From Phlyctochytrium arcticum (taxonomy: Eukaryota; Chytridiomycota; Chytridiomycetes; Chytridiales; Chytridiaceae): a stretch of 64,000 bases of DNA. The notes under the pieces are model-generated. The model was not told where the DNA came from and did no database searches. It was given only the letters and a program-made list of their open reading frames with translations. Positions within the stretch are counted from its first letter, which is position 1, and each line of letters opens with the position of its first letter. The DNA is taken from assembly GCA_025602905.1 (NCBI GenBank), contig JAHLKI010000021.1, positions 310,001 through 374,000 on the forward strand. The letters are read 5' to 3'. This document shows positions 1,225 through 46,526 of the stretch, one piece after another. The position numbers were made by a program, and so were the translations under genes.

Positions 1225-4107
1225 ATGCCGCCCAAAAGAAAGGTGAGATGGGCATCTTCATGATCTCGAAAACAAGCCTTTATCCGGCTGTAGGAGTCAG
1301 TTCACTCATTCTTTTACTTCTTCTTATTACAACCATTATAGCGCCAGGTAGACGGACTTAGCTGGTACGATCAGGTACCCGGTAAGAGGGGTAACAAATA
1401 TGGCTATAACCCTGGATGCATCGGCTGCGGGACCAAGAGCTCAACCCGATTTCACAAGTTCATTTGGGCTGAACTTGACAGCCCGGCACGTTTGAGGCCC
1501 CAGGTTGGACCAGGAGCTGCTGATCCGTATGCTTGCAATGCGTGTCGAACCCGCTGGTACAAAGCAGGGATCATTCGACAGCCCGCCGTCAGGCCCATCA
1601 TCCCTGCTCAACCCAATGAGGTTGCGGCCATTCAGGAAGCCAGCATCAGTACCGACAATGTGGTGGATGCAGCAGTGAACGCTCAAGTCAGTGACGACAA
1701 CGTTGTCGATGCGGTTGCGAATGGCAGTGTCATCTTGATGACGGACGTCGAGCTTCCGGAACCTGAAGGCGATGATGTTGATATTTCTGAAACATCAGGA
1801 CCATCTCCTGCGACTCTTGCTGATTTTCACCAAGAAATGCGCAACTTCATTGCTCATCCGTTCGGAGGAAATCCGTTCGTCGAGATGGATGAATTTGTCG
1901 CTCAGTATCCCCGCCTATATGAGCTCAAGTCACTCATGGTCGGACATGACGAAAGCCGGTATTCTGTTCTCTACAACGATCGAATGAAGCGGCACTTGAT
2001 CTTTGCCATATGCTATGAGGGACAGTGTATGGACCGGAAGACTGATTACGTCAAACGATATATCGGATCTGTCTTCATCACGGGATCCCACACAGACCAA
2101 CGGCTTCTTTCACGGGTGAATCTGGGCTATCATCCGTCAAAATCGATTACGCGGATGAACAACATGATCATGACGGCCCACGAGCGCGTTGTGAAAGATA
2201 TTTTGGAGAATGACCCACTCTTGGTCGTCACCATTGATGACTTCCATTGGTGTCAAGTCCGCCCTGTACCAGATGCCGCAAACGCACCCGGAAAGTTTAC
2301 GAGTGCGAGGACCACCGCCAACTATGCGGTAAAGCTTCACAGGGAACTGCCACCTCTTCCTCCTGCAATCACCGATGTTCTAGCTTCTGTGTTGCAGGAC
2401 ACAACATGGATTCCCTCAGTCCTGTGTGCTCCCGCAACGCAGACGTATGCGGAACTACGTAACGGTGAAGTTTTGTCCAAAAAAATGTTCGCCTACAGTA
2501 TGGCTACCAAGGCCGGATCGCAAGAGGATTTCCACATTATCGGCAGCGACAACAACCCTATGAAGTCCGCTCTCGATTTGGACCCAGTGATGGACAATAT
2601 CGAGACATTCTTGGCGAAAGTCAACTATCCTGACAAAGACGGTTCATTTAGTAAGTCTGTGGTTTTGGCCGGCGAATACTATGTTTGGATGTACGCTAGC
2701 AAATTGCTGCGATCAGCCAAGTATAGTAATCTCAGGCCTCACGTCCTACCGGTCCCGGACAATATGCATATAGCCCTGAACATACAGGAGGCAGTCCTTG
2801 TCCATGGTTGGACAATCATACACCGGCTGTGGGTTGCCGGGTATCCGGACGTGGAAAACACAGCTCCCATCAACATGCGGCCAAAGCGCAGGACGGCAAT
2901 GTTGGCCCTCTCTATGACCGCTTGGCAAGAGTGCCGTAAGGAAGTCTTGCGTTCCTACAAGGCGGCGGCATCCAGCAATATAAAGGCAACACCTGTCCGC
3001 AAGGCGATGGTGGATTCGATCATCTCGCTTTTCGAAGATCACATTCCTCTTGCGGTGGATTGTCCGTATTTACTGTCTAGTGGGGATCTCGAACAGATCA
3101 AGATGTGCCTCAAGCGGCTGTTCCCGTTGTTCACTCTTTTGGGAAAGAAAAACTACGTGAACATTGTCCTCTACCAGCTTGGTCTCTTAGAAAAGCTTCC
3201 CTCCCACCTACCAAAAGATGTTGCAATGGCTTTCCTTTTCTCCACTTTCTCAAGTGAGGATTTGGAAGTATTTCACTCCATCCTCCGGGCCGCCATCCGC
3301 TTTCAAGATACTAATGCGCAGGTCTCAAGAAAGGCAATGTTGATAACCGCCATGAGGGGTGAGTCTGCCATCAAGCAGCTTGCGGCTATGACAGAAAGGG
3401 AGTTGGCGCTACGTGGACAACCAGTTTCGCCAATCAAAGTCGAGCCAGGTACCTCTGGTCCGGCCCGTACTCCCGCCCTATCCCCGCTAGAAAAGGCAGC
3501 CGATGATGTCGTCCCGAGGATGGTTGCGTATCTCAAGGACCTGTTCTCCACCCTTTTTCAGTTCACTTTTGACGTCGTTGGACAACATGATAAGATTCCA
3601 TATGCGTCTGCTCTGCCGCATTACAACCTGATTCTCCGCCCTCCAGCTCCAGCCCCACCCGTCACCAACCCTGTACTCTCTTCCGGGTCAGCTACAACCA
3701 ACAAAGAGAACACTACGGTAAACCTCCCTCCAGCCAGCGCAGAAGAGATCCCCGTGGTAGTCTTAGCTACCATCCGGGAGTCACTTCTGCCTTTGCCGCT
3801 GCGCCGTCAACCCTTCGTAAATCTCGGCAACCACATCGATGTTGAAGGGTTTCAAAGTGTTCCAATGCCGGTCGCGAAGACCCCTCTTGCTGACATTACG
3901 AATGGGCCATCTCCCAGTAAGGCCAAAAAAGTCACAGTGCGAGATTTCTTAAAATCAGACTCGCTGAAGCAAGATCTGACCGCTTGCGGTTGCGTGATCT
4001 TCAACTGCCAATGTACAGCAATGTACCAGTGGATTGCAACCAAGTCCCTGAAGCATTTTTCAAACAACATTGACAAGGAACTTGTGCGTGATGATGAAGG
4101 TAATTAA
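1225..4107 (+). CDS. CxxC-finger protein of unknown function (927 aa), possibly transposase-derived
   Basis: Two exons: 1225-1242 (six codons, MPPKRK) and 1342-4107, joined in phase 0 across a 99-nt GT-AG intron. The first ATG of the long frame lies far downstream, so this tiny basic first exon is the best start. Near the N-terminus are two CxxC pairs (CIGC and, about 45 residues on, CNACRTRW), spaced loosely like a GATA-type or zinc-ribbon finger. The body (residues ~170-700) is alpha/beta and Leu-rich, with acidic positions in VTIDDFHW and VPDNMHIALN and a GKKNY segment; the tail is Pro/Ser-rich and ends with several Cys. The order faintly recalls fungal DUF6589-type proteins, which are thought to derive from transposases, but I do not recognise the family securely. 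There is no obvious terminal inverted repeat around this gene. Confidence 0.75.
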
Positions 4108-4497
4108 GCCAGAGGTACCGCTCAGTGTCTCGCGAGTTGCGTCCTTTTCCCGGCTATGAGCGATTAACAACCTTCTTTCAAACACTATTTAGAATCATCA
4201 GTTTCAACATCAACTCAGTAGCTCGTGTATCTCACCATGCTTACGCATTTCACGTACCCCATCAAATTCTTAGATGCGCTTAGACTGTTGGTTTTTCGGG
4301 TCAAACTCTATCCTTTATATAGTCTGAGGTAGCGGCCACGTTTTCCTTAGCTTCTTAGATATGTTTCCTTCATTCTCGTTTACTCGGTTTCGTTATTTTA
4401 TATAAAGTTTGGGTGAAATTGGGTCACTTTCAGGTATCCCTTCATTCTCGCGGAAATGGTTCGGGCTGTCGGACATTGCTTATGTAAATTTTTGGCG
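4108..4497. other. Intergenic region left of the MULE
   Basis: Non-coding by inspection. Before the transposon inserted, this stretch would have continued directly into the sequence at 7848, so it probably contains the original distal promoter of the CDF transporter gene at 7898 as well as the 3' flank of the gene ending at 4107. Confidence 0.5.
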
Positions 4498-4505
4498 CCA
4501 AAATC
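4498..4505. repeat. Target-site duplication, left copy (CCAAAATC)
   Basis: The 8 bp CCAAAATC abut the left terminal inverted repeat and are repeated exactly at 7840-7847 next to the right one. Length and position fit the 8-11 bp duplications made by Mutator-like transposases. Confidence 0.9.
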
Positions 4506-4604
4506 GGCGGCTGCCAAATCTCCACGGGTCTTCTTGCCATTTCTCCACCCCCTGTCATGGTGACTCACAAAGCCCCTTTGTAAAGTGGGTTCACAGCCAC
4601 TTGC
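4506..4604. repeat. MULE left terminal inverted repeat
   Basis: This pairs with 7740-7839. The outermost 46 bases agree except for one T/A difference; the inner part is more diverged but keeps GTCAC-like and CACAGCCACTTGC blocks. Confidence 0.9.
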
Positions 4605-4707
4605 CCGGACAAAAGTCCGACAATCTTTGGCTCAGATCCATTTTACCCTCCCTTGCTTGCAAATACTCCTTTAGCAAGCAACGTCCCACACAAACTCGAT
4701 AAAAGAT

Positions 4708-7501
4708 ATGTCCTCCAACAGCACCCAGTCTGAGGATGTCTATAATACCATGCTCGCATTACTAGATGAGCATAATGAAGCCAGCAGAAAGCTATCACAG
4801 AGGATGACAGACCTGATGGCTTTAACCCCGGTTACTCCAACTCTCATGCAAACAGCGTTGCGGGCGGTACAGCCTGTGGGTCATAGGGCTCCTACTTCGT
4901 CTGAGGGTAACTTTACACCCTTGAAGCCAATGATGAACCATGGAAAATCTCATGCGCCCAATTGTTTACTTACAGCAGAAATCAGTATTGGGTTGAACGC
5001 TACCGACGAGGCTCACAACGACTCGACCAATACACAGCCTAGTGGTCAAATTCAGCTTGGAGGTAAAGTATTCCTCTTCAATGTTTGTTGGTCATCAAGC
5101 TCATTTGGCTCATTGTCATCCTAGAACCCCATATCGGCTTGAACGACGACGGCGAGAATGCCACTTCAAACGGTGCGGAAGATGACGGGAGGCTTGATGA
5201 CCAGTCAGTTTTGAACAGTTCTGGAGATGCCACGACTTCTGATGGTATGATTGCGCCCAAAGACAGTAAAGGTTCACACGCTTAAATAAACCTTGTTTGC
5301 GCAGCATGGACCCCGCCCCTCCCTCCTTCCGGTCCATTTGCCACCGCAGAGGAAGCAGATCATGCTTTGAAGCAGTTTGCCATCGACAACGGATTTGCTA
5401 TCGCGAACCTAAGGGAGCAACGCGTTTCTGGGCCAGGAAGCGCAGTTCACAAAATCTGGCGCCCCTGCGCATGCCACGGCGAGTATAAGCCTAAGGACCA
5501 AGGTGTGCCACTGTGCAAAAAGGGGAGCAAAAAGACCGGTTGCGGCTATATGGCAATTCTGAAGGGTGTAGTGAACAAAGGGGTTGTGGGAGAATGGTCA
5601 ATCAAATTGTCCGATACCGTGGGCTCAGGAACCCATACGGGACACATGCAGTTGACAATGGCGGGGTTGAAGACTATGTTTCAAGCTCGGCGTTTTACCC
5701 AAAATCCTACTGTGTCCCGGGAAATCCAAAATATGATCGAGGCGGGCACAAAACCGCGAGAGATCTTGGCTACCATCAACAAGCACACGTCTCGGCCATT
5801 GGTGACGATCAAAGAAATCACGAATCAAAACTCGAAAACCATGGAAAACATACTGCAGGGACGTTCTCCCTTGACAGCACTGCTCGACACCCTTTCCCAG
5901 TCTGTGGAGCAAGGTGTTGTTACAGACGTGGTCCAGAATGAAGAGAATGTCTTGACTCACCTTTTCTTTCAAACTGATGTGAGTTCGATGGCTCAAAACC
6001 TTGTCTTATTTTCTTTTAATCCTCGAGGCATCTAGCTGGAGATGGCAAAGCTTTTAGAAAAGTTTGGCGATGTTCTCATAATGGACTGTACGTACCGGAC
6101 AAACCGGCACAGAATGCCGCTTCTCCACGTCGTGGGAATCACCGACACCTTTCATTCCTTTTCCGGCGCGTTTATGCTGATGGCAAACGAAACGACTGAA
6201 GATTATAAGATTGCGCTTGATCGTCTGACAGCTTCGCTGCCAAAGCCACCACACGTCGTTGTCATTGATTGCGACACCGCCTTCATTGCAGCCGTGAAAG
6301 CTCAGTGGCCTAATACGAAGATCATCCTGTGCCGATGGCACTTGTGGCAGAATATAAAAAAACATTGCCAGAAGAATTTCGTTGACGACGACGAGAAGCA
6401 TGATGCAGAAGCATTCTCCGAATTCAAAGAGTAGGTTCTATATTCCAATGCTCATAACCTGTGATTGCTCAGATATTTCAATATAGGGCATGGATGGAAC
6501 TGGAAAGCGCTACTACAGAGGAAAGCTTTTTTCAACTCTGGGAACAGATGGAGAAGGACATTGACAAGGCAACGTTCGCCTATCTGGAAAAGAACAAGAT
6601 GCCCTTACGCCAACATTGGGCCAGCGTGTTTATCGATAAACATCAACATTTGAATGCAACTGTGACTTCGCGCGTCGAAGGAAAGCACTGGGCTTCTATC
6701 AAGTCCAACGGCTCTGCCAACTCCACCATCTTCACGTTGTATCAAACTATCAAAAGAAATTGCGACCAGCAGATGGCGAATTATCAGGCTGCTGTCGTTG
6801 CAAACTCGAACACCATCCACCGCTTTCTCACCGAAGATGATATACAAGAAAAGCAGAAAAAAAGATTCATAACCCGTGTCAAAGTCAAGCCTTTCTACTC
6901 GGAAGTTAATCAACGCCTTTCTTTGCACATACTCACCATTCTTGACCAAGAACGAATCAAGGCAGATAGGATTGTCAAAGCCAATGATCCTAACACTGTT
7001 TTGAGCGAAGGGTCATTGGTCCTGAAACCATGCACCTCATGGCATAGAACAGTCATGGGTATGCCGTGTGCGCATGAGATATTAGCTATGCGGAGAGAGG
7101 ATCGTGGATTGAAGATGAGTGATTTCACTTCAATATGGCATCTGCAGCCAGTCACCGCCAGCTCGGAGGTGCTTGAACCTCCAGTCGGTCGCTTTACCAA
7201 TTCTACGCATGGGCGTGGGAATAAAAGGCTGCGGACATCGGCAGAGATCGCAGAAAGCCAGCTGCAAGCGAGCCAACGACACTGTGGAGTGTGCCAGGCA
7301 CGTGGGCATGACAGAACGCAATGTCCGTCTGCTCTTGTAGCTACGCAAGCCGCGCAAACAATTTTCGACGATATTTCCGACTCGAACGTCCCCGCACCTG
7401 GAAGCAGCTCAGAGGCACCACGCAAAATTCGGGCTGCACCACGATGCTCCGGTTGTGGGTCGTCGGGCCACACTTACAAGAGTTGTGCAGCAAAAAACTG
7501 A
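4708..7501 (+). CDS. MULE transposase with FAR1-type finger, SWIM-like motif and two zinc knuckles (852 aa)
   Basis: Exons 4708-5062, 5125-5244, 5305-5978, 6036-6430 and 6487-7501 join in frame over introns of 56-62 nt. After a low-complexity N-terminus (~160 aa) comes a FAR1/FLYWCH-like zinc domain (HKIWRPCACHGEY...C...GCGYMA...HTGHM). The DDE domain follows: first Asp in LIMDCTYRTN, second in VVIDCDTAF with CRWHLWQN after it, and a Glu in SRVEGKHWAS. A degenerate SWIM finger (C..11..PCAHEI) follows. The C-terminus carries two CX2CX4HX4C zinc knuckles (CGVCQARGHDRTQC and CSGCGSSGHTYKSC). This is the classical MULE order. All catalytic residues look intact, so the protein is plausibly active in transposing its own element. 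Confidence 0.92.
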
Positions 7502-14652: not shown

Positions 14653-17600
14653 CTATTCCATAACCGCAGCAAGTTGGATCGCAGCAGTCGCGACGGCGGC
14701 GGTAGCAGTCGTGCTGATGACGCCGGTACTGACCGTGGTGTTTTTGCTGGACCTAAGCAATGTGGAATTTAAGGGGTTTTGTCGAGTATGAGCTGTAACA
14801 CTGCGCGCCTACTTTAAACTCAAGAGCTTCTTCTCCTCAAATTTCTTCATCCATTCCGCAATAGTATTTTGATTTTCAAATTGCAACTGCAGACGGTAAC
14901 CGCTTGGTAACTCAATCAGCAAGCACATTTCTTCTAGATCGGGCTGCAGGGCGAGGTCTGTCAACCTGTAAAATTGACCCTGTTTCCTTTGATTTTAGAA
15001 CACTTTCAGATGGAAAATGTCAAGATGCATTGTTACCTTCTTGGTGTCGATGTCTGTTATTTCAAAATAGTTTGCGACCAACGAAACTTGACTGGCTCGC
15101 CAAACCAAAGCAGTGTCCAACTTGGTAGGAGTGTACTTAGTTTCCTGGTAGATATTATTGCTTTGTTGCCCTTTCTGTAATGTATATTGTGAATCTCAAG
15201 TTTCATCAACTTCGTGCGAGTTTACTCACGTTGGCAACCTTTTTGACGCTGCGCATCACATGGTCATCCTCCGAATCCTCGGACATTGTTAGCCAGATCT
15301 TGTATCCCAGGATAGTCACGCTTAAAACTGTTCCTACAACGAAACACAATGCGACGCGCAATGCAAACTGCGCAGAGCCGTCCATCATGTTGGGCAGAAG
15401 GATTCCTGCGGCGAGCCCACCAGTGACAATCATGTTGGCCGCATTCAAAAAGAGGATTTTGTCTTCCATGGCGGGCGCTGGCCATCCAACTTTGATAGTC
15501 TTGAGAGAAAATCGAGCGGTGAATGCCAGAATCATAGCCATTAGTGCGAGTAGTATTCCAACGAAAGGCGTTTGGCCGTTGCCGGAACATGACCAAAATC
15601 GGGACTGACTGGTGTAAAGCAGCCGCGGCGTTGGCGCTTGAACAGTGCGCCAGACGACGGCGAGCGTCTAAAGATAGTAAATGTGTGTTGAGTGGGCAGA
15701 TAATGTGCAAAGCCGGAGTGTGAGCTTACCCAAAAGATTGCTTCAGAAATGAAAATACAAGAAGTGCCAAATCTGTGCATGATGAGTGGGATGGGGGAAC
15801 GCAGAGCAACCTTGTTGCGCCGACGTGTAAAAATCTGGTATGCTTTGAAAAGCAAAACTCTGCAAAGGGCGCATGAGCAATGAGAATTGTCACATCAACT
15901 TGCATTACTCACGTTGCTGGTAAGCCGAATGAATTGGGTAACATCAGAACTTGAGCACTGCATGTGGCATTGGTAGGTTCGAAAGCATCCGTGATCGGGA
16001 ATGCCAAGAGGTTCACGATTCCAAATGCTAGTACCATGTCTAACGCAACTGACGTTCCGACGAGGGCAGGATGGGCGCGTTTTCGGAAGAGCAGAATTGC
16101 CAATACGATAGTGAATATAATAGTGACTGCTGAGGACACTACGACAAGTATGGAACCAATGCTGTTAATGCTGGTGTTTGCGAGCGCACCGGTTGCGACG
16201 CCTACTCCGGCCGAACCAACTGAGGTGAAATTGGGGTCAAGCGATGTCTGTAACTTTCCACCAGCAGCCTGGAGCTCTCGATAGTTGAGGAAGTTGCCAT
16301 CGTACAGGTTTATAAGGGAGAATTTGAGATTCAGCGTTCCATTGGAACTTCTTCGTTGGAGCCGCGTGCTAGGCTCGGACGACCAATAGTCTCGGAAAAT
16401 CACATTGTGTGAATCGCCATAGACCTTCTGAACTTGAGCGAAAAGAGCATCACGACCCGCCACAGAAAAATCAAATGTTTGTTGTGATCCCGCAAAGACC
16501 GGTGATGACGGTGAGAAGGAGAAGGTCAGACTGTCATTTTGGCCGCGTTTCAGCTGACAGGACAGGCCTTCATACGAGGTGTCCACACAGTTACAGTTGC
16601 CATCTCCGACGCAGACACCGGCCGGGGCAGCACATCCTTGCGAGCATCTTGGCAATCGACATTCCAGCTGATTCACTTGGTTGGCAACGCGGCTACCTAC
16701 ATTGAGCGAAGGAAGCAGCTGCTTGGGAGCTTCACAGTTTGATATAGAAACCGGAATAGTGAAAGGCGGAATCTGAATGCCTTGACCGCTGTTGTCTTGA
16801 GAAATGGTTAAATTGTATGAGCCAACTTGCCCAAAGATAGTCAGATCGTTAAACGTCAAGCGTCCGCTGTCCGCGACCATCAAGGTTGAGCCAAGTAGCA
16901 AACCATTCGCAGGTGATACCACCTCCCCGGTCGTAGCATTTCTCAGTGATGCCTGTAAGACAACGGCCGTCTCTTTTTCGTGATCAATAAACGTCCCATA
17001 GCAATCGTAAGTGTCCAAAGAAACAGAAGGCAGCACTTCTCCCGCTAGTAGGTTGACATTTCCCCAACTGCTTGATGACTTGATGGAGCAGGTGGCAGAC
17101 CCAAAGTCGGCAACACGTGGAGCCGTATTATTGATAAATCCCGAGTTTCCGACTGGAAAATACTTTCGAGCACCTGTGTAGACGGCACCGCCATACTTCC
17201 GTGCTGAATTGTTTGTGAAAAGGACATCCACCAAGCGTAATTGCGGAGTTTCCGTAAATTTGTCAATATAAACGCCACCTCCTATGTCTGCTGAGTTTGA
17301 AGTGAAGTTACTAGGGAATATAATATTGTCAGACACTTTTGCGCAGTAGAATTCCTGATTTCAAGGTAAGTACCTTCGCCAGACGTCGATAGAACAGCCG
17401 TGGACATCAAGATTACAAAATATGGCACCTCCCGAAGTCTGAGCTGAGTTGCGGGAAAAGGTCGAGTCATCGAAGGCGATGGATCCTTTGCACTCACTGA
17501 GTACGGCACCGTTCTCTGGTGTTTTGTTGTCTGCGTAGAGTTCAGTCAGCACAACCATCACTTAACAACTGTGTTGATATCTATACCCTCAAAAGCGCAA

Positions 17601-19910
17601 CGCTGAATTGAAAACTGACTTCCACCTATCGGGCGGAGAACAGAACCACCCGTGTTGTTTGAAAACGTGCACTGACTAATGTTGACCGGGGCAAGAGACC
17701 CTTCGATGACAGTATTGACAATATCTGTTTCCGAGATACTTGTAGTTAGAGATTGACGAAAAAGCATACTTCTATTGCGAACCTGTGAACTTTGATTGAG
17801 AAATGCGCGTCAAGGGCCAGGTATCTTCAGCTTCCGACCGTTCTACTTTGAGGAAAGCCCCCTGTGTTTTGATACCTGTAGCAATCTGTTAAGCAAAAGT
17901 ATAGGGCCTATTCCTCAGTAAGAAACTTACTGGAGAAGTTTGAGTTTTTAATTGTTAGATCACCAAGTTCATTGACGAGCAGGCAGTTGCTAGTACATGA
18001 GGTGCCTAGACATATCGGAGAGTTAGTATATAATAAAGCCCTTCAATTATTGCTGCGCGTACCTTGTACGACCACATTGCTCAAAACTACCACCGCTGTT
18101 CCGTTGCATTGTAAAATACCACTTTCCATCACACCGGCGGAAGATATTATCGAGTCAGTAAGGTTCAAAGACGATGCAGCAACGGCAGCCAGAAAGTAAG
18201 CCGTAGTTCCGCCCGCCCCGGATTGTGCAGAGTGATCTGTACAAATTGAATGTTATGAAATGTGCGCGGGACCGCAGGCGAAAATGCAACACGTACTTTC
18301 GATCAGAGATTTCTCGATGCTCAATTTGCCCTCGGATCGAATAACTCCGACATTGTTACGCATGGTCAGACCAGTGGCTCGCATTGTTGACGGTTTTGCG
18401 ACATCAAAAAGGTTCACCGGGCGGTAAGTGATTTTGTCGTCAATATCCAATACCGGCACGGCGTTGGGGTATTCAGCGGTTGAATCTACAATGCGCATAA
18501 GACAAATTGGTAAATCTCCAGAACTGATCCGACCAAATATTACCTTCAATCAGCGTATTGCTAACTTCAAATTTTCCCAACGGAACGTCGAAGATATTAC
18601 CTGTATAGTCTGGAGGACACGAGAAAAAAGGGAACAGAATGAACATGAGTAATATATCTCTTGTAACATAACGGTACTTAACTCACTCTTAATATGCAAA
18701 TTTTTAACAACGCTATCTTCAAGCGAGCGCTTGCTGAAAAGTGCCGAACACCAATGTTTTGGGTATAATGTGGTCGTGTCTTTGACTACCACATTGTCAA
18801 CCCAAGCGCCGCCTCCACCAGCGAGATGCTATGTACCAAGGATGCATCAGTGACACATTCGACTTTTTACTCTATAAATGCAAAACTCACCGCAAAAAGG
18901 GGGTACCCGTATTCACACATACTAAAAACAATCATTAGTATGTGAAACAAAATCAACATCTCAAATAGCCAGTCTCTACTCACGCTCCTGTTTAAATATG
19001 TTAGCCTCAAAGATTTCAAGAGGTACAAAAACAATTAACTTACCAGATACAATACTATCCGTGAAGGACGTGTCAATTGTGACCGACCGGAGGCCGAGAA
19101 TCGAGGGACCTGTGCCCAGTGATGAATGTTGACTCGAAAACCGGCAATCGAGGGTAAGCATACCTTGGAAATCTAAACGTTCAACAATCACGGAAGAATA
19201 GTGTGCAGTTGGGCGAAAAATGACTCCTGGTTTGATTTTTATATCCCTCCAGGTAAGGGAATTGTAAAGGGATTCTTCTGTATCGATCTGAAATCTGACT
19301 ACATCATCATTGGTCACCCCATTGGTTTCCCAGTTCGGCTGTAGTCCCCCTGGCAATAAGCATTACTAAGTGCCTGGCAAACTCTTCGAAGCATGAACCA
19401 ACCTTTAACAGTAACATTCGAAAATGTAATATATTGAAACATCGACTCCCAGTCCATGAACCACATAAACTCCGTCCCACCACCCGACAGCTTCGATTGA
19501 CCAAACTCAATGTTAAAGACATCCAAATCAATACCTCCACCAATAATCAAATCAACTTGCGAGGGAGTATTAGCTCCGCGAACAATAGTAGGCCCGTGTG
19601 AACCTTCCCACGCTGATTGACCGGCCTTAATAGTGAGATAAATATATCCATCCGAGCGCAATGAGTAATAACTCTGGTCGAGGGGGTATTCTCCAGGCGC
19701 CTGAAGAAGAATGGTTACTTCCCAGTCTCCGGAAGCGAATGCCGCATCTAGGGCGGAATCGAGTGACTTGAAGGGATCCGTTGTAGTTCCAGTACCGGCT
19801 TGAGCATACGATGAATTGACGGATAACGACAAACCGTGTACAGCAGAAGCCATTAGACATAGCATTCCCAGCAGCAAACACAAAGGAGAGGATATTCGAA
19901 CTCCGGGCAT
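14653..19910 (-). CDS. Receptor A: beta-helix (POMP-repeat) ectodomain + class C GPCR 7TM + PH-like domain
   Basis: Many exons over 5.3 kb. It starts at the ATG ending at 19910 with a clear signal peptide (MPGVRISSPLCLLLGMLCLM). Next comes a pectin-lyase-like start (DPFKSLDSALDAA) and a long stretch of beta-helix rungs, including POMP-type repeats such as FTNNSARKYGGAVY. A Cys-rich EGF-like module (CSQGC...CVGDGNCNC) and a membrane-proximal domain precede TM1 (SILVVVSSAVTIIFTIVLAI). The seven-helix region (exon 15909-17336 through 15206-15541) has class C features: ATCSAQ before TM3, ARFSLKTIKVGW, and a final GYKIWL. The cytosolic tail has a PH-like fold (exons ending 14979-14813, QFYRLTDLALQ...TIAEWMKKFEEKKL). 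The last exon is 14752-14653; reading past the apparent TAG at 14809-14811 through a 60-nt intron yields a TVST-containing tail that matches receptor B. Middle exons are only partly resolved. Confidence 0.8.
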
Positions 19911-20511
19911 TTTGGTATCTAGATTTTGCAGCAAACAGGGGGTATTTTTGCCAGGAATTATTCTTCTTGGACGGGGAGGAGAACGGGCACCGTTGTTATA
20001 TTTTAAAAAAATTGCTTCACAAAATAAATAGGTACGATTAAACTTAAACAATAGCTAGCTATTTAGCTGTCGGAACAACCGTATCCAGTGAGGCGCTGAA
20101 TCTTATTTGCCTACACGGCTATGGCGGGTTTCTGAATACCGGATGAATACCCGCGCCATTGTGCAAATCCGAATTTGCATAAATTTAGACTTGGATAAAT
20201 CTAAAAGATCCCCAAAATGTTCGGGTTGAGTCGTCGGCGACCTGGCAAAATTAACATTTAAGCAAACAAATATGACCATTCCTTGTGTCTTACGCCTATT
20301 TCCGGCAATACGGCATCCAACTTTATTTAGAGTATTTACAAATCCCATCCCACCCCGCTCGTTGGGTATCCGACAGAATTCCAAAATTAAATCCATAACA
20401 AATACAAGAAGTTTCCGCAGATTCCGTGCGCCCCCTCACTCAGAAGTTAACGCCTTATAAGTCCGCAGCTCTAGTGATCTCTTTGGGTAAAAATCTCGAA
20501 GTCGCCCCGAA
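19911..20511. promoter_or_regulatory. 601-bp bidirectional promoter of the receptor pair
   Basis: Receptors A and B start at its two ends and are read outward. The region is AT-rich and contains short inverted repeats (20162-20179; 20184-20205) that could bind a dimeric regulator. Shared control of the two receptors is an inference from geometry. Confidence 0.55.
20162..20179. repeat. Short palindrome in the receptor-pair promoter
   Basis: TGCAAAT and ATTTGCA form a perfect 7-bp inverted repeat around a 4-bp spacer. Its central location between the two start codons makes it a candidate regulator site; chance occurrence cannot be excluded. Confidence 0.35.
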
Positions 20512-23500
20512 ATGTTACTCCGCATCAAGATGGTGCTGATTCAGGTGGTTTTTGCGCTAATATGCAACTTACAGCTCGTCTCTACTGGACTAGCTGGTAA
20601 ATAACTACTTGAGCAAAAATTCTCGATGATCCGCAACCTAATCAAATTTTTCTTATGGTCTTATAAGATGTGAGCGTCACGGTTGATGTATCCTCAACGA
20701 CCGATGTATACCCAAATTTCTCCACAATTGATTCTGGTACGTTGTTCTTTGTAGAATTGGCGAGCGGAATTTGCAAAGCTAATATTTTGTACCCTCAGCA
20801 TGGAATCACATTCTCAAACTCCAATTTGGGTCGCCTTATACCTCTGCAGTCATACGCTTCTTACCGGGCACCTATGTGATTGCACATAATTTGACTCGCA
20901 CCTTTGCCAACATGTCTATCCGACATGTGGCCGATACCCCAAACACTGTTACCCTTGTTACGCCTCTTATGACAAGCACTGCGGACGTTCCTACGCTTGT
21001 TGAGATGGGAAATGGCACAAATTCATATCTGGAGTTCACCAATTTGACTGTGGCCATACCTGACAATGGCATGTTTCACTTGACCATGACAGGAAATAAT
21101 GCCACTATGAATGTGACAAACTGTTTGTTCGAAGGTTTGTCTGACAGATACCGGATTTACGGGCGATTACTGAGCATGTTGGCTGTAATTAGGAGCCGGA
21201 TATTATAGTCGTCTTACTTTACGAGTGGGGCATCTCGATATCAACAGAGCATCCCAGTTCATTTCCACGAACAACATTCTTCGCAGTAAGTATTTTTCAG
21301 GATACTTATGACCGCCACCGCATCTCATAGCTGTAACAGATTTGGCCCCTGACATTGCTGTTTATCGCATTGCTGGCGCTCATATCAAGGGCGGCGGTGC
21401 CTACCAGATGTTTCGCTATCAAGGTGCACCCTTGAAGGCCGAATCAGGACCTGTCTTGATCGAAGACTATGAAGCCCGCAATTATACTTGGTCACAAAAC
21501 CCGGTATTTCAATACTTGAATAAGTACCGAGCCACTTGGAAATCATACCAGCTCCGCATGCGAAATGTAACAATTAGTGGTAAGTTAAATGCACCGTTTA
21601 CTCAACAACTGCTAAATGGCCACAAAAAGATGTTGCTGTTCTAGGACCCCTTCTTCGTATTGAGGGCGGGAACACTCATCTTTCCGACATCTTTATGGCT
21701 CGCAATAATAACTATGGCCCCTACCTGGGTGTTCAGCAATCTGAGCGCAGTCTTGTTCGTGTGCAGGCAGACAGTGAAATCTTGCTTGAAAATTTCAACG
21801 CAATCGGTATAGTTTGTTCAGTGAGGTCGTGGGTATCCCGAGAAACTAACTTGTCGATGGCTGAATGCAGACCATGAATTGGATATGGGATTCGACCTTG
21901 CGTTAGCGACTGGTGCCAAATTCACCTTCCGAAACGGTAACATTAAAAGTAATTTCAATGCTCTTTTTCCATTTGTGGAATCGTCAATTCTTACGCTATT
22001 TAACTTAGATTTGACTGCTCGCCATTGTGCAAAGCTCTCGTATGGATCAATTTCCATTGAAGGGTCCACTATCGGTAAAAAGATACTGGTGAGATATTGA
22101 AGGAAAGCTAACATTCCCCAAAGAAAACAGCAACTGCACGTACGTGCTCGCAAAGGTTCAGCTAAATCGAAGTACCCTCACTTTCCAGAACTCTACACTG
22201 AAAAGTAAGAGGCCGAATCAGTACACATTCTGATTGGATATTCCTCTAACGAGCTTACAGATAGCACATGTGTGGATGGTGCAACCTTATTCGATGTCAG
22301 CGGCTCCAGCCTGATAATCAACAACACTCTCGTGGAGGGTAAGCTCCATGCATCAAAATTCTTGATTTGGTGTTAATAGCCTAAATACATTTACTTAGGT
22401 ACTCGATCTCCCCGTGGAGCAGTTTTCATTGCCCGAGACGCCGCCGAATTCGTCTTCACCAATTCAGCTCTCTCCAACAGCTATGCTTACCGATCTCTCA
22501 TTTCGATCGATATCTCCAGCACGGTGAAGATTTCCAACTCGGCAGTCAAATCAAATACGGCGCAGTTCCGAGATTTGATTCTCATTGATTCCCACGGTGG
22601 TAACACGGTTTTAAATAACAATACTTTTGAAGGTAGGATCTTTGAGATGTCGCGATTCTTTAGTGTCCAAACTATTAAGCACTTGGCAATCAGATAACAC
22701 ATCGGTGCAAGAGTCGTTCATCAAAATTTCTCCCGGGGTCAACCTGGTCCTCTCCAACTCCACCTTCCATCGTAACCGCAAACCCCTTTCCATTGACTCC
22801 CTCTCCGCCATTTCCATTGAAAAGTGCATGTTTACTCAGAATTCAGCCGTCATCAATTCTCGGGGTAACACTACTGTCAAAGACTCTACGTTCCGGCATA
22901 ATATTGCCGCGACCGACAGCGGCGGCGCCATTGCGCACGTTCCCGGCCATACATCCGCTTTTCTGGTTATCAGCAACACAGTATTTGACACCAATGTAGC
23001 CGATATAGACGGCGGAGCGATCTTTTTGGATTCTCCAAAGTTTGATCCAATCAAACTGGTCAATGTGACGTTCAAAGGAAACTCGGCAAAACGAGGGGGT
23101 GCCATGTTTCAAGCGCAGAGCCAATGGGCTAATAAGGGACTCGGAGGGTATGCCTCCTCTGCATTCGAAGGGAATACCGCCGAGTGGCAAGGTTCGTAAA
23201 ACAAACATTTTTTGCTGCGCTCCAGTACCGCTAACAGTATGGGGTCGTTTTAGGAAATGACTTTGCGACTGGCATCAAGGACATAGTCATACTCAATACC
23301 ACGGCTCTTTCAACCGAGTCCGGCAATCTCATTGGTGATCTCATTGTTCGAAGTCGGGATGGTATGTATATTTTACAGTCTCGTACTCCGCGCGACTAAC
23401 TCTTTTGAATGAACGTGCAGCGTACGGAAACACATTCCGCCCTCCCCGGTCCGCGTTGCTCAAAGTCTACCTAACTGCGCCCACAAACACCTCCCTCCTC

Positions 23501-25935
23501 GGCGAAACAACCAAGTATCTCCTGAGCGGAGAAAGTGCCTTTCCCCTGCTCCGCTTCTTTGCGGTTGCCGGCAAGCACAATCTGACTGTTGCCCCGGACG
23601 CGTCTTCTCTGTACAACTCAGCCAATCTGACTGCGACAATTACGGTACAGACGCTGCCGTGTACGGAGCTGGGAAAGGAGGAACGACCCGTGGAAGGCAC
23701 AGATATTCCTGCTTGTGTGACTGCTGTCTGCACGAATGGGTGCTTGACCGATTTTGGGTACTGTCGGGCAGACTTTTGCGTTTGTACGGATCCCTCCCGT
23801 GAAGGTACGCAAAAGGGAGTAAACCTCCCACACTATTTCCGTCGGTTACGGGTCCTCATCTGTCGTTTAACAGGCATTAACTGCGGTCTGACCAAGAACG
23901 CTCGTGATACACTCTCTTTCACCCTTCCTAGTAACTACACCCCCACAGCGGCAAACCGGGACACCCTCCTATCCGCCGCGCAGAGCGCCCTCCCACCCGG
24001 CTACATTGCGCAGTTCCGCTCGCTGACCCCGAAAACAGCGATGACTGCTCAATCATCGATTCTAGCTCGTCGCTCAAATGACAATATTTTCACAGTTGCA
24101 GTCACAACAACCGGCTCCAACCCCTCCTATATCGAAAATGATGCATTGCAAGTCTTGGTTCCCGGTCTGTCCAGTACAATTGCGGCCGTGACCGTTGGCG
24201 CCGGAGTAGACTTGCCCGTCCAAGTTTACACCTCCCCAAAACAGACTGTGCCCCCTTCCAACTCCATCGTAATCTTCTTTCTCGTGATGGCGGCCATCAG
24301 TATCACGTTTTCCATCATATTCGCGGTGCTCCTTTTCGTATTTCGGCAAAACAAGGCGTAAGATCATTTCTTTCCTCCGCATACTGTCATCAAACTAACG
24401 TTTGTCCCTCGGCAGAGTCAAAGCTTCATCCCTAGTCTTCTCCCAAATGATTATTGTCGGAAGTGTGCTAGGATACTCGCTCATATTCCTTTACATTGGC
24501 CAGCTTTCGACCGCCATCTGCATGTCTCAAGTCTGGTTGGGCGGTGTAGCCTTTGCGTTGGCAGTCGGGTAAAGTTCTTACCACATTTTGATACTGCGCA
24601 AAAAAAATGACTAAATTGATTCAAAATTTTAGAAACTTGATTGGCAAGAATTGGCGTATCTACAAGATTTTTAATACACGTGGAAAGACTCAGGCCGTCA
24701 AAGACCACCATGTGCTGATGGTCACCTTCGGAATTCTTTTCATCGAACTCGTAAGTTTGCCAGTGTGCACTACCATCCCTTTGATCCTAAAACCGCTGAA
24801 AAGGCAATTGATGCCATCTGGACTGGTGTATCCCCTCTTCAGCCTACCCTGAAAGAGACTGGCAGTGGACGATACTATACGTGTGACTCGGACCATGTGG
24901 CCAACATGCCCATGACCGCCATCTCCCTTTTATACAAGACGATTTTACTCCTCACGGCGTGCTCGCTCGCGTTCTTGACGCGTAATGTGGATATGCTGTA
25001 TGGCGAGAGTAAAGCCATTGGAGTTTCATCATGTGAGTACCATTGCTTTTATTTCGATATTTTTGATTCAGAGATACTAAATATGACACTGATATAGATG
25101 CCATGCTCTTATCCGGCGGAATTATCATTCCCCTTGTCTTCCTCCCCCAAACCGACGCCCAAACAGCCTTCTACCTCAAATCCACTGGTATCCTAGTCTC
25201 GGGTCTCGTGACAACATTTGCCCTCTTCTGGCCCAAACTCTACTTGACTGTCTTGAACGAAACGGGAATAGACTCGTTCCTTCGGTCCGGGACGCGGCGG
25301 TCCTCGCGATCCCGCAAAGGCAAAACTACTGCCGTCTCAAGTGGAGGTGGCGGCTCCAGCGGTGGTAATCAGGACACGATGATGGCTCAGTCGATGCAAG
25401 CCCGAACGGAAGAGCAGGCGAAAGAAGATGACCGAATTGTCAAGACGCCCAATGTGTGTACGTTGTATCAGAAGGGGGGCATGAATGGCCGACTCCGAAA
25501 ATGTGAGGTGGTGATGGATCCGGCGCAGGGCATTATTTTGTTTGCCGTCATGTCAGAAAATGTAAGCTCAAAATTGTAGCTCTCCCCACATCCATCTTTC
25601 GCAGAGCTAAACATTTTCCCCCGACTTAGTCACAATTGAACTTCCCTGGCGTCTCGTTCCGCCTCGAACACCTATCCTCCTGCAGCTGGGACCCGCAAGA
25701 ACATTCCCTGATCCTCCAAGCCGGTGACAACTCCCTCCAAGTCACGTTCCAATCTACCCGCATCCTCCAGGCATACGTGAATGAAATGTCTGCCAAGCTG
25801 GGTAAGTGTTGCCTTTCCATAAACCTCGTAGTTTTCAAACTCTAATCCTTTTTCTTTCTGATAGTGGGCAAAGATGCGACAGTCTCGACGCCTGCTTCAT
25901 TCATGTCGGCTTTCCGCACTTCCCGAATCGGTTAG
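20512..25935 (+). CDS. Receptor B: beta-helix (POMP-repeat) ectodomain + class C GPCR 7TM + PH-like domain
   Basis: It starts at ATG 20512 with a signal peptide (MLLRIKMVLIQVVFALICNL). Beta-helix rungs are encoded over many small exons; the exon at 22700-23199 shows POMP repeats clearly (TFRHNIAATDSGGAIAH, VFDTNVADIDGGAIFL, TFKGNSAKRGGAMF). The Cys-rich module (CTNGC...CRADFCVC...GINCG) and a SEA-like juxtamembrane part lead to TM1 near 24270-24345. TM2-TM7 carry class C signatures: SSLVFSQMIIVGSVLGY, the NWRIYKIF loop, HHVLMVTFGILFIEL, RNVDMLYGESKAIGVSS and ALFWPKLY before the C-tail. The tail has a Gly/Ser linker and a PH-like domain (GRLRKCEVVMDPAQGIILFAV...SFRLEHLS), ending ...FRTSRIG. 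It is a paralogue of receptor A by domain order and local sequence. The first extracellular exons (20670-21300) are only partly resolved. Confidence 0.8.
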
Positions 25936-26131: not shown

Positions 26132-27637
26132 CTACAACTGCGCACCATAATCTGCTACCTCTACCGCTTCCTCCTCGCCCAAGAGCTTCCGTCCAGAGAC
26201 CCCAAACCAATCCGGGCAATCAGGCTCAACCTCTAAACCCAGCACCATCCGCGCAACATTTCTCCCACACAGAAACGTGCGCGGCATGCCGTGGCCGCCA
26301 AACCCGGCACAAACGTATTCGCCCGGTCGGGATGGTCCGAGTGGTCCCACAAACGGGAACCCGTCCCGCGAGAAACCCATCATCCCCGGCCACTCCATTT
26401 CGACCTTTGCGTCTTTTAACCCGGAGAAGTGCGCAGGGAGGTAAGATCTCAGTCCCGCTGAGACATCCGGGTTCAGGCTTTCTTCATCGTTGTTGCCGAT
26501 ATCGTGGTCGGGGGCTAGGTACCGCATTCCGCCCAAAATAACACGCCCGGATTCGCGGGTCGAGAGGTACTCGTATCCATCATGGGCGTCGGCTGCCAGG
26601 TCAAATGGGACGGGCTCAATCGGGTTGGTGACGACAACTTGGTTGCGGACCGGGGCAATGGGAAGTGTGGGGAGGAGACCCCGAGTATACGCATTCGTAC
26701 AATACACAACATGTCGCGCAGAGAGGATCCCTCGCTGAGTCGTAATCTCCACCAGGCCCTCATCACTCTTGACTCCTTCCACCATCGTATGCGTAAACAC
26801 ATCCAGGTTTCCGCCCTGCTCATCCATTCTAAGGGCTTCCTGAACCAAGGACCAGACAAACTTTGCCGGCCACATCCGGTACCCAGGCGTTTTATGCACA
26901 GCACCGACCTGATCCTTATTCCCCGTCAACGCTTCTGCATCTGCCGAACTAATCACGTCCATGGCGACTTCACACCCTCCCTCCCGTTTCATTTGCTCAA
27001 TCTCGCCCTGCCAAAACGGGATTTCTTCGGGCGTGTTGAGCATCTGCACACATCCTTCTGTGAATTCGTGAAAGTGGGGGTCTTGGGCTTGTGTGCCATT
27101 GGAGGCAGCTGCCGTCTGTGCGAACCGCTCACTGAATTTGCGAAGCTCGTCACAATTGGCATTTTCGAATCGTAACAGCTGCTTGGCTTTGGCGATTCCA
27201 AGGCGTTCAGTCAATGCAGTCCATTTGTAATTCAGCCTGCATTTAACCATTTATTTCTGAACCTCAACCCCATAGCCATTATTATCAAAAAACATACCCA
27301 GGCACAATCAATCCCCCATTCCTTCCCGTAGCTACAAACATAAACAAATCAGACATTATGCAAAATCACAAGATCCAATATTCTACATACCTCCAGACGC
27401 AATCCCCCTAGCATCAATCAACGCAACCCGACTCGCCGGATTTAAATGCCTCATATGCCATGCAACACTCGCGCCCGATATGCCTGCTCCGACCACGACC
27501 ACATCATAGACTGCTTTGGGGAGGCGATCGGGTGGGGGCGGGAATGAAATGTCTTTTAGCCAGTAGGACGGGAGGGGTTTTTGGGAGGGTAGGAAGCGCT
27601 TCATGGTGTCGTCGGGGGTGAGGGTGGGGCCGGCCAT
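26132..27637 (-). CDS. FAD-dependent oxidoreductase of the D-amino-acid oxidase (DAO) family (461 aa)
   Basis: Exons 27637-27391, 27331-27298 (34 nt) and 27236-26132 join in phase. The Rossmann FAD motif is VVVVGAGISGASVAWHM at residues ~46-62, followed by the small exon encoding GRNGGLIVPG, a flavin-contacting loop in this family. The C-terminal third has the conserved GFSRDGFPFVGPLG and YVCAGFGGHGMPRTFLCGR, which place FAD and substrate. Overall it resembles bacterial/fungal amine or sarcosine-type oxidases (OrdL/PuuB-like), which oxidise C-N bonds of amines or amino acids and release hydrogen peroxide. No signal peptide is seen; the exact substrate is unknown. Confidence 0.9.
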
Positions 27638-28171
27638 TACACGGGTTTATATTACTCGGGTTAGGTGCGGGATCTTGGGTCTTTTGACGCGCAGAGTCGC
27701 CAGATTCGTGATGTGTGGTGTGTGACAAATGTCCACACGTGTCCTAAGCGCAGCGCCGCTTAGCCGCTTGGGCGGAGTTTGGGGAGTTGTTCCGGGAGTT
27801 GATTCACAGATTCAGGGATTCAATCCAGCGTTGCCTTTGAACTTTCGCCAATGTCCAATGCAGCCGTGGAAAAATGTATTAGGGGGTGTGTATGGTAGTT
27901 AGAAATAAGTGTACATGAGTTAAAGATTAAATCTTGGTAGGCAGTCCGGAGTCGGCGGTAAACAAGTCCTTTTTTACAAATTTTGTTTTCTGAATGGGAA
28001 AATTGATCTAGTATATAGGCGTAAATTTAATAAGAATACATGGTGCCCTTGGCGCCTTGGGCGTTCAACTTTCGAGGTAATAGGTAGGTAAAGAATGTGG
28101 GCGGGGAAGTACGGAGTCGACCCAAGTTCCGTTTCTTTCCCTACAGGTATGATATTGTTAAACATAACATG
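27638..28171. other. Intergenic region
   Basis: It contains the promoter of the DAO-family gene (reading left) and the 3' flank of the disordered-protein gene. No convincing coding frame, RNA or repeat is seen. Confidence 0.5.
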
Positions 28172-37881: not shown

Positions 37882-38722
37882 TGGACGGGCGTAACTGGCC
37901 GAGAGCAGGGTGGTCCCTCGACCATGAGCTCGTCCGTGGCAGGATCCTGCTGGGACATCGAGCTCGGTCCGTGACTTGTGCAAAGTTGCAAAGATGGCCG
38001 GGAAGGGACAACCATTATGATGCTTGCTTGAGTTGATTCATGTTCTTGCTCCATGGCACGTTTCCATAAAATGTCGTTTACCGATCTTGCAACGTTGTTT
38101 GGGGACCCAGTGGCTTTATCGTGCGAATACGATTACGTTATCAGATTGGGACGCCAGGCACGTGCCCCGTCGCGCTCCGTGAGTTTGTGTGAGTTGTCCG
38201 TGAGTTGTCAAAGTCAACAGTCGCTCCAACACAGCGAGCCTTGCCGTACAGATTATCAGAGATTTCGACAGGAAGACGAGCTTTTCGTACGGCCACCAGA
38301 ACAATCAGAGGATCATCCTCGACGCCTCCAACGTTTCCTCCTGTACGCTATCCCGGATTCTGCGCGCATCTTGTCGCCCATCACTTTGTTCGCGCGACAG
38401 GTTACCCTCACAGCGAGGGGGAAGGTTTTGTACTGCCAGCATCCTGTAAGAGCTTGAGTCCGTCATATCAGAAGGACCGGATGGACTGTGTGGAGAAAGT
38501 CTGCGGCTTTTCTATTGGTGAGTCTGCGTACTGGCCGATTTTCGGCAGGGTATCCGGTCGGTGCTATACAAGTGTGAACCTTGTGTCTAACCTTTGATCT
38601 CTGATAGACACTTTGGCCGCTTCACCACGCGTAGTTTAGTTGCCGCTACGGGCCAGCCAATGTCCCCTCGCTGATACGTACTCATCCACGATTGTTCCAT
38701 TGAAACTGGAGAGAGTGTCGTT
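37882..38722. other. Divergent intergenic region between lipase and kinase genes
   Basis: It contains the promoters of the lipase (left) and the RIM15-like kinase (right). Two overlapping plus-strand frames of ~130 codons are present but have no recognisable features and could be leader sequence; I do not call them. Confidence 0.45.
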
Positions 38723-44700: not shown

Positions 44701-46526
44701 ACGGTCTTTGATGGAACAGCTCATGTGTACAGATGTGGACCAGCGGCTTGGGACTAACAGTGCAGATGACGTGAAACGGCATTCTTTCTTCACGGACATT
44801 AACTGGAATACACTGTTAAAGGAAGAGGCCTCGTTTGTTCCCAAAATCAAAGGAATGGAGGATACTGATTATTTCGACGATCGGGGGGCCAACGACTTGT
44901 CCGGAGCTGTGGATGAGGATGACGAGGAAGTAGCGAGTGTACCTGAGCCGCCAACAACTCCGTCAGCTAGTAGTGCACCGGCTTCGTGGAGCCTGAGGAG
45001 AATGAGCGTAATGAATGCGCAAGATGCTGCACAGGCGGCGGCGGCGGCGGCCAGGAGGTGGGAAGGCGGTGAGCAAGGTCCAGGACAGCCAGGTAGTCCT
45101 GCAACAGGGACTGGTAGCGTGGGTGCCGCTCAGAAACAGGCGTCGGAATACTCATCGCCTTTAAGTTCCCCGGCCCCCATCAGTGGGCCGTCAGTTGGGG
45201 AGACGGCTAGCATGCCTTCTCCTCTACAGCACACGGAATCGGCACCTGATTTCGGTGAATTTGTTTACAAAAATTTGCCTTTATTGGAGAAGGCCAACAA
45301 CGATGTTGTCCGTCGGCTCAGATCCGAATCGATGAGTGGCTCAATGAGTGATAGCGGAAGTCGATCAAGGCATAGGTCATCGCCAGCTGGCGTCGCTAGC
45401 CTCTCGCCTTTCCGTTCTTTGACTGGGCTCGTACCGCCAAGTCCTAGTCCAGGGGCACTTTCCCCACGGGCCGTCAACGCGGCTATTAACCCAGCTCATT
45501 CTCAATCAGTTGCCAATAGCTTGGACAGCAATTCCCGGAATCTCTCTTTCAGTGGCAGTCTGCCACCTCCGGCTCCTTTCTTACTTTCGAGCGGTTTACC
45601 CATGCCAAGTCCACCCCTCACCACAGCTGCCGGCGACACACCCAAAATTTCCCGATCGCGCCTTGTGGAAGTTGAATTGGCCGCGCGCCGCAACTCACTA
45701 CCTTCACGGCTACGAGCAAGTAGCTTTAGCCAAGGTATTCCCTCACAACTCTCACCACCCGCACCGGGCATGTCCCCGCCCACACCACAGAGCTCTCATA
45801 TGGGAGGTGACTCGTCACCAGGAGAGTATCTTCAGACGGCCAAAGAGCAACTCAGAAAGGAGAAGGGACCAGTACCGATGGTACCACTGCCACCCAGTGC
45901 CATACCGCTCGACCGACCGTCAAATCACAGTATGCTTCCTGCGATTCCTCTACCACCCGGCGTGAAGCCTGCAACCGCTGCCCCTCCTGTCGCTGTCAAA
46001 ACACCGACCGGCGGACTACGCCAAATGGATGTTCTCATTGCTGATGACAATCCTGTCTCGCTACGCATCTTGGAAAAGATGCTTAGCATGCTTGGTTGCC
46101 GGTGCGTTATTGTCCGGAATGGTGCTGAAGCCATTCGGTGCGCCATGGGGGAAGTCAAGTTTGACGTCATTTTCATGGATATTCGTATGCCTATTGGTAA
46201 GTAGAACATCTCGGATCCATTTTCTAGCCAACATTACTAACACGAAGGTATTTGTAGTTGATGGTGAGACGGCCGCTCGAATGATCAAATCCACAACCAA
46301 CGTCAATCAAACAACGCCCATTGTGGCTATCACCGCCTACGAGCAAACTTTCCATATGAGTCAAGGTTTTGACGACACCATGTCGAAGCCAGTCACCAAA
46401 GATGTTCTTTGGCGCATTCTTGTCGCTATCGAAAGCAGGAAAGAGGGTTGCCTTCCACCGCCACCAACACCAGCCGCCGTGCCGAGCGTTATAGGCGCCA
46501 TATTAGAAGCACCTTCAACACCTTGA
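38723..46526 (+). CDS. RIM15: RIM15/Greatwall-family kinase with PAS, C2HC finger and response-regulator domain (2580 aa)
   Basis: Exons 38723-46196 and 46258-46526. The N-terminal third is disordered and Ser/Pro-rich. A PAS domain (~990-1110: [22 protein letters not shown]) and a C2HC finger (~1217-1240: CNICERSVP...HSEAC) follow. The AGC kinase domain starts at ~1679 ([19 protein letters not shown]), with HRDLKPDN at ~1801, DFG at ~1821 and GTPDYLAPE at ~1925. The ~100-residue insert between DFG and APE is the hallmark of Greatwall/MASTL and Rim15. A receiver domain ends the protein: [15 protein letters not shown], phospho-acceptor Asp ~2486 in FMDIRMP, TAYE and K of MSKPVTKD. In yeasts, Rim15 integrates nutrient signals for quiescence through endosulfine and PP2A. 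The architecture is complete; no key residue is missing. Confidence 0.93.

Follow-up and report, generated by a model that had tools for sequence, protein, structure and literature searches.

A head-to-head pair of receptor genes

In a 64,000-nucleotide stretch of the chytrid Phlyctochytrium arcticum (contig C21:310001-374000 of the 31.5-Mb genome, called the window below and numbered from its first base), two divergently oriented genes, A and B, encode receptors in which a class C seven-transmembrane (7TM) core is joined to an adhesin-like beta-helix ectodomain and a PH-like tail. A first-pass annotation had described such a pair, and both genes do lie where and as it placed them, head to head. 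With GT..AG introns of 49-77 bp removed by hand, their frames run through 1399 and 1420 codons without an internal stop. The modules follow one common order: signal peptide, beta-helix, EGF-like Cys module, ferredoxin/SEA-like domain, class C 7TM, and PH-like tail. The features are as follows.

14653..19910, minus strand: gene A (A-type receptor), 19 exons, 1399 aa, hand-spliced
19833..19910, minus strand: A, putative signal peptide, hydrophobic segment at residues 6-24, limit approximate
17070..19829, minus strand: A, parallel beta-helix with POMP-like repeats, spliced, limits approximate (Beta_helix 1.1e-6, Chlam_PMP 2.8e-8)
16551..16664, minus strand: A, EGF-like Cys module, from the Cys pattern (EGF_2 E 0.4, under the cut-off)
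16170..16541, minus strand: A, membrane-adjacent ferredoxin/SEA-like domain, from the predicted model of relative P0011, with Arg-Arg codons 16350-16355 in a loop
15311..16166, minus strand: A, class C 7TM, with introns (7tm_3 46.1 bits, E 6.4e-12)
14813..15141, minus strand: A, PH-like tail, linked by profile through other class C tails, kept in P0006, P0011, and P0012
19911..20511, no strand: intergenic region between the start codons of A and B, 601 bp, candidate bidirectional promoter
20512..25935, plus strand: gene B (B-type receptor), 20 exons, 1420 aa, hand-spliced
20512..20596, plus strand: B, putative signal peptide exon, hydrophobic segment at residues 5-23
20700..23273, plus strand: B, parallel beta-helix, spliced, limits approximate (Chlam_PMP 0.013)
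23657..23890, plus strand: B, EGF-like Cys module with one intron inside, from the Cys pattern only (no Pfam match)
23897..24241, plus strand: B, membrane-adjacent ferredoxin/SEA-like domain, from the predicted model of relative P0001, with Arg-Arg codons 24068-24073
24257..25237, plus strand: B, class C 7TM, with introns (7tm_3 160.7 bits, E 6.8e-47)
25457..25800, plus strand: B, PH-like tail with one intron inside, from the predicted model of relative P0001, sequence support weak

An alternative model of gene A stops at 14809 and has 18 exons and 1367 aa. A micro-exon of 4 nt (18984-18987) is uncertain. Gene A corresponds to a published P. arcticum protein, P0005 (DFS34DRAFT_628680, 1271 aa), 1266 of whose 1271 residues are identical to the hand-spliced model; the two differ at the micro-exon, in a single residue, and again at the 3' end. 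There P0005 ends inside the intron after 15230, which the published model reads through, so that the tail region (15174-14653) is without coding in it and P0005 has no PH-like tail. A counterpart of B was not among the matches listed for published P. arcticum proteins (7,993 candidates scored).

Could the architecture be an artefact, a beta-helix gene and a neighboring receptor gene wrongly spliced together? The first-pass annotation had named such a separation as what would undo it, and all the models are hand-made or automatic. Even so, this explanation is almost refuted. A single exon of gene A (15913-17310) runs unbroken from the end of the beta-helix across the EGF module and the ferredoxin-like domain into the first two transmembrane helices (TM1-2), and beta-helix/POMP repeats and 7TM are annotated within single proteins in P. 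arcticum and also in Powellomyces, Spizellomyces, Gaertneriomyces, and Thoreauomyces.

Four pairs, each of one A and one B

An exon-by-exon scan of the P. arcticum genome with the Pfam class C profile 7tm_3 gave 35 exon matches, which amount to 15 loci plus seven genes belonging to pairs of the same kind. Pair members were sorted into A-type and B-type through tblastn comparison of 20 genome stretches. There are four head-to-head pairs, each consisting of one A-type and one B-type gene, never A+A or B+B.

C21: A on the minus strand, B on the plus strand, 601 bp from start to start
C10: A on the minus strand, B on the plus strand, 491 bp from start to start
C6: A on the minus strand, B on the plus strand, 633 bp from start to start
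C2: B on the minus strand, A on the plus strand, 661 bp from start to start

Two of the start codons were set by eye (B_C10 808511, A_C6 171930). These pairs hold all eight beta-helix class C receptors found in the genome. A search with an A-type relative, P0006, returned 13 matches, all at the four pair loci and none elsewhere. With a B-type relative, P0001, there were at least 32 matches among the best 35 of 48 candidates; the ectodomain part matched only at the four pair loci, and matches outside them fell in or shortly after the 7TM. Head-to-head placement with another 7tm_3 match was seen at none of the 15 other loci. Of these, 14 were modelled, their ectodomains being judged by eye. By eye as well, a short repeated motif can be seen between the two genes of the C6 pair (C6:172250-172500).

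The six paralogue gene models repeat the domain order of A and B. They were made with a small gene finder, for which the 37 introns of A and B served as training set and which was tuned by trial. Some exons are wrong or missing, at the EGF module of B_C10, at TM3 of B_C2, and in the 5' part of A_C6; the best-scoring model of A_C6 ends short of the tail, and an earlier one includes it.

Both types have relatives in other chytrids. The B-types are P0001 of Powellomyces hirtus (51% identical to B over 98% of residues 560-1420), P0002 of Geranomyces variabilis (45%), and P0003 of Spizellomyces 'palustris' (34%). The A-types are P0006 and P0007 of Gaertneriomyces (41-42%), P0011 and P0013 of P. hirtus, and P0012 of Thoreauomyces humboldtii. 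P0013 is by eye nearly identical to P0011, which groups with the A-type of the C21 pair. P. hirtus carries both the A-type P0013 and the C21-type B P0001, each on a contig listed at 751,007 bases, an indirect indication that A and B are probably linked there too. Other proteins encountered were P0004, a class C protein from a metagenome, and P0008-P0010, which are beta-helix only. NCBI places P. arcticum in the Chytridiales, and its closest receptor relatives are in Powellomyces, Geranomyces, Gaertneriomyces, and Spizellomyces, genera of the Spizellomycetales, so the genus label of P. arcticum may be misplaced.

In a joint tree (15 rows: 6 A, 7 B, 2 outgroup), A and B form separate clades with support of 100/100 and 96/96. 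Within each type, separate trees (8 A, 7 B) both give ((C10,C2),C6) apart from the C21 type, supported at 100/99 and 100/100 for A and at 100/100 and 100/99 for B; the joint tree supports the same nodes at 98/98 and 98/98 for A and at 100/100 and 92/92 for B. These trees do not include P0013, and the tree tool warned of long branches for A_C6, B_C6, B_Spalust, and the outgroup with A. The C21-type A and B group with the A and B proteins of the other species (P0003 more deeply). The A and B clades branch in the same order, and therefore the pairs were duplicated as units. Judging from these sequences, the A+B pair probably existed before the split of these genera and was then duplicated as a unit. 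It has stayed together while the paralogues diverged to about 28-33% identity across pairs (best pieces).

One account of this layout requires no partnership at all. A and B may be receptors that function independently, each as a homodimer, with a promoter in common because one stage, the zoospore for example, calls for both. Head-to-head pairs are a common layout for co-expression of genes whose products have no need to bind each other, and A and B each possess a complete set of domains. Weighing on the other side is that all four pairs have one A and one B, with concordant trees. The account deserves serious attention, although I think it rather improbable, the more so in light of the cytoplasmic residues considered next.

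The class C core and what A-types have lost

The seven helices with class C signatures described by the first-pass annotation are borne out, as is the 7tm_3 similarity whose absence it had said would count against it. The curated Pfam cut-off for 7tm_3 is 33.5 bits, and the scores exceed it in A (46.1), in B (160.7), and in all six paralogue 7TMs; the 7TM domain is of the class C fold. Scores range from 46 to 75 bits in A-types (n=6) and from 89 to 173 bits in B-types (n=6; the lowest from a model without part of TM3). The best sequence match of B in the PDB is GABA-B2 (E 1.9e-23). P0005, the published A, has no class C match there, though Pfam 7tm_3 recognises it.

The two types differ at specific residues. 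The alignment of the 7TM comprises 29 rows, namely 7 B, 8 A, and 14 other P. arcticum class C receptors (P0013, whose 3' end is missing, was left out). At the end of TM3, the third residue past the Lys of that helix is an Arg in 7/7 B-types (six aligned, plus one alignment gap that reads GKNYR in the raw frame) and 14/14 other receptors, and in 0/8 A-types. An Arg in the third inner loop is present in 7/7 B-types, 13/14 other receptors (one gap), and again 0/8 A-types. A-type receptors have lost two conserved cytoplasmic arginines that B-types and the other receptors retain. Elsewhere they are conservative: the TM3 Lys is kept in 8/8 A-types and the TM6 Glu in all 29 rows, and of the two Cys of the conserved disulfide, that in TM3 is found in 7/7 B and 8/8 A, and that in the second extracellular loop in 7/7 B and 7/8 A, the eighth being a gap. 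G-alpha genes are present in the P. arcticum genome.

An A-type receptor acting alone, with both inner arginines gone in all eight instances, looks impaired, which speaks against A and B as independent receptors. The same loss invites a different idea: that A-types are non-signalling adhesins or decoys anchored by a degenerate 7TM, and that B is the sole receptor and works alone. The lower 7tm_3 scores of A-types, as well as the missing arginines, would be expected of it. A mere anchor, however, would not be expected to retain the disulfide cysteines, the TM3 Lys, and the TM6 Glu in every gap-free sequence, along with a conserved tail. I regard this idea as decidedly unlikely.

The ectodomain

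The beta-helix reported for both genes stands on different footings in the two. Both of the Pfam matches of A given above exceed their cut-offs; B's own match falls below, while that of its relative P0001 (Chlam_PMP 2.5e-7) is over. POMP repeats (TIGR01376) were found in 4/4 proteins scanned: P0005 (5.8e-8), P0001, P0011, and P0012. A beta-helix ectodomain with 7tm_3 and without ANF is therefore found in A itself and, for B, by way of P0001. A search of the P. arcticum genome with the Chlam_PMP profile yielded nothing at E <= 0.001, and the profile is therefore useless as a survey tool here.

As the first-pass annotation had said, the Venus flytrap is absent: neither A nor B has an ANF or SBP Pfam match at E <= 1, and for want of such a periplasmic-binding match they are not filed with the Venus-flytrap class C receptors (mGlu, CaSR, GABA-B type). 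Identity with adhesion G-protein-coupled receptors (GPCRs) was considered and ruled out, there being no GPS, GAIN, or 7tm_2 match at E <= 1 in either protein. The EGF-like module survives as a Cys pattern in both genes, with a family match that is weak in A and absent in B.

Beside the membrane, predicted structures of two P. hirtus relatives, the A-type P0011 (predicted local distance difference test, pLDDT, 79; predicted template modelling score, pTM, 0.73) and the B-type P0001, show a beta-alpha-beta-beta-alpha-beta fold. These models, made of the relatives and not of A or B themselves, support, without proving, a ferredoxin-like membrane-adjacent domain in A and B. The SEA profile had no match in eight family members at E <= 5. 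Foldseek with this domain gave no matches at E <= 0.001, and SEA families were not among the matches listed. Its sequence, compared with the PDB and Pfam, drew only an N-WASP row (E 0.0084 over 23 residues), judged to be chance. The dibasic loop within the domain in several members suggests cleavage by a convertase of the Kex2 type.

Introns in the ectodomain of the eight pair genes are in phase 1 in 74/90 cases, as against 4/33 in their 7TM and tail, and 37/119 in the 14 other class C genes, counts that come mostly from automatic models by a gene finder with a small phase-1 bonus. The excess suggests that coils of the beta-helix arose by exon duplication or shuffling. Phase-1 dominance in these introns (20512-24357 and paralogues) resembles that of exon-shuffled extracellular proteins of animals.

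The PH-like tails

The PH-like tail of the first-pass annotation is approached here through the other class C genes of P. arcticum. Ten tails were chosen from the 14 modelled genes. In single Pfam scans, PH was the only or best match for 6/10, at E 0.0011-0.067, under the cut-off, and 4/10 had none. As a profile, the ten tails gave 22 PDB matches at E <= 1, of which 21 were PH proteins (best 9.4e-4); for some PDB matches to the tail profiles the PH identity is presumed from the name. A mixed profile of 14 chosen tails (6 A-type and 8 other, no B-type) did better: the best 60 of its 62 PDB matches at E <= 1 were PH-domain proteins, going by their names, led by ARHGAP21 (5.7e-5) and GRK3 (7.2e-5). 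The tails of L025, L026, and A_C6 had been left out of it, the first two being other class C tails without the look of a PH domain, and control profiles with these rows restored were weaker.

A-type tails connect to this set by hhalign (92.5%, E 5e-7 against the other class C tails), and the Trp of the C-terminal helix is present in 7/7. For B-types there is the predicted model of the P0001 tail, with seven strands and a C-terminal helix (pLDDT 53-79 in 10-residue blocks, one loop at 32). The PH assignment is thus well supported for class C tails as a set and fair for A-types; for B-types it rests on one model. PH-like tails occur also on the class C genes L018, L019, L020, L022, L023, L024, L027, and L028, whose ectodomains appear by eye periplasmic-binding-like. 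A PH tail exclusive to the pair is ruled out by such genes, and fusion of 7TM with PH may be general in P. arcticum.

Other genes in the window

Three other regions were noted by eye:

1342-7501, plus strand: long open reading frames, transposon-derived in look, with a SWIM-like motif
26132-27646, minus strand: FAD-dependent oxidoreductase, DAO-like, adjoining gene B
38675-46204, plus strand: open frame of 2509 aa combining a protein-kinase core with the beginning of a response-regulator receiver, presumably Rim15-like

Comparison with known systems

One of the closest known systems is GABA-B1/GABA-B2. Besides being the source of B's best solved match, it has two unlike subunits, one without residues that its partner keeps. 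GABA-B1, too, presumably departs at the two arginine sites. A and B differ from it in having beta-helices instead of Venus flytraps, in their head-to-head genes, and in that dimerisation is here a proposal. GABA-B carries a coiled coil; in its place A and B have the PH-like domain. The membrane-adjacent domains of cadherin-23 (MAD28) and protocadherin-15 (MAD12) are also counted among the closest known systems. In Arabidopsis the RPS4 and RRS1 genes lie head to head. According to PMC4707544, their products are paired unlike immune receptors that form a complex, as proposed for A and B. They belong to an unrelated, cytosolic protein family.

The main text of Seppala et al. 2016 (PMC5168858) describes about 100 class C receptors of anaerobic gut fungi, about 30% of them with a pectin-lyase fold, some with beta-helix repeats, and a few with EGF. 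They are like A and B in their beta-helix-type ectodomain, the 7TM, the lack of ANF, the many copies per genome, and their fungal origin; a few have an EGF-like module, for which A and B show the Cys pattern. With the architecture recurring both there and elsewhere in the P. arcticum genome, a system special to this locus is ruled out. That main text nowhere uses pleckstrin, PH domain, dimer, head-to-head, SEA domain, or C-terminal, so that pairing, the division into A and B, and the PH tail are not described in it. PMC3251606 reports class C receptors in chytrids, an ANF domain being present in most of them. A survey of 918 fungal Glutamate-class receptors (PMC12842992) does not contain PH domain, beta-helix, or heterodimer in its main text; PMC10445921 deals with amoebae. 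Among the open-licence PubMed Central papers listed, titles and the starts of abstracts yielded neither the pairing nor a class C-PH tail. The first-pass annotation had called this an undescribed system. That is too much for the architecture, published in 2016, and for the PH-like tail, which is not unique to the pair; what stands as not found in that body of print is the class C-PH fusion and the recurrent, co-duplicated A+B pair, seen four times over.

A proposed two-subunit receptor

I propose, with confidence only a little better than even, that A and B are the two subunits of one GABA-B-like heterodimeric class C receptor, in which B couples and A senses. The proposal is made because the pairing recurs as A+B, the trees agree, and the A-types have lost two arginines. 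The subunits would be made together from the shared promoter region. Each would extend outside the cell as a beta-helix stalk, an EGF-like module, and a ferredoxin/SEA-like domain, pass through the membrane as a class C core, and end inside in a PH-like domain. B would be the subunit that couples to G proteins, and A would stand to it as GABA-B1 does to GABA-B2, in a sensing or allosteric role. What the beta-helices bind may be a surface or polysaccharide ligand, a ligand class already suggested by the first-pass annotation, and the PH-like tails may anchor the receptor to particular membrane lipids or to G-beta-gamma. Where a member has the dibasic loop, as several do, a Kex2-type protease might cut it, giving a two-chain receptor.

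A number of observations weigh against the proposal. The same gene layout would be expected if A and B act alone yet need to be co-expressed, and no 8-base word is shared across all four intergenic regions. Loss of the arginines is consistent with an uncoupled A and is no proof of one. The exon-wise 7tm_3 scan missed gene A itself, and hence a weak partner beside another receptor could be missed as well. Outside P. arcticum, A-types are not among the matches listed for Geranomyces or Spizellomyces, nor B-types among those listed for Gaertneriomyces or Thoreauomyces (candidate lists of up to about 8,000), and the sole evidence of linkage in a second species is the equal listed size of the two P. 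hirtus contigs, which is indirect.

To these may be added the tails. Single scans with Pfam PH draw a blank on the tails of A and B themselves, where the first-pass annotation had read a PH-like domain into each; what is left of that claim is the link of A through other class C tails and of B through the P0001 model. Seven A-type tails alone reach only E 0.026 in the PDB, 11 of their 22 matches being PH, 10 ferritin, and 1 tau (an earlier profile of five A-type rows had 11 matches, best 0.16). A profile of B-type tails has no PDB match; by hhalign they score 55% with the mixed tail profile and 3.3% with the other class C tails alone, and they are without the invariant Trp. The odds of a heterodimer are unchanged by this, since that reading is not built on the PH tails.

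The proposal can be carried further, to a paired class C receptor gated by contact or force: two unlike stalks, made from one divergent promoter, would touch a surface and pass tension through convertase-cut, cadherin-MAD-like membrane-adjacent domains into a heterodimer of the GABA-B kind, tied by its PH-like tails to membrane lipids or G-beta-gamma. I offer this as speculation and think it unlikely. If it were true, the four pairs with their diverged stalks would constitute a small repertoire by which the zoospore chooses a settling site.

The best-known class C receptors that are obligate heterodimers of unlike subunits, GABA-B and the taste receptors, come from animals. If they are heterodimers, the four co-duplicated A+B pairs of this fungus would represent an instance that is independent or older and uses another sensing module, and it would become testable which came first, heterodimerisation or the Venus flytrap. 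The fusion of receptor to PH would tie a GPCR to lipids or G-beta-gamma within one chain, and the pairs would be a concrete candidate for surface recognition by the zoospore.

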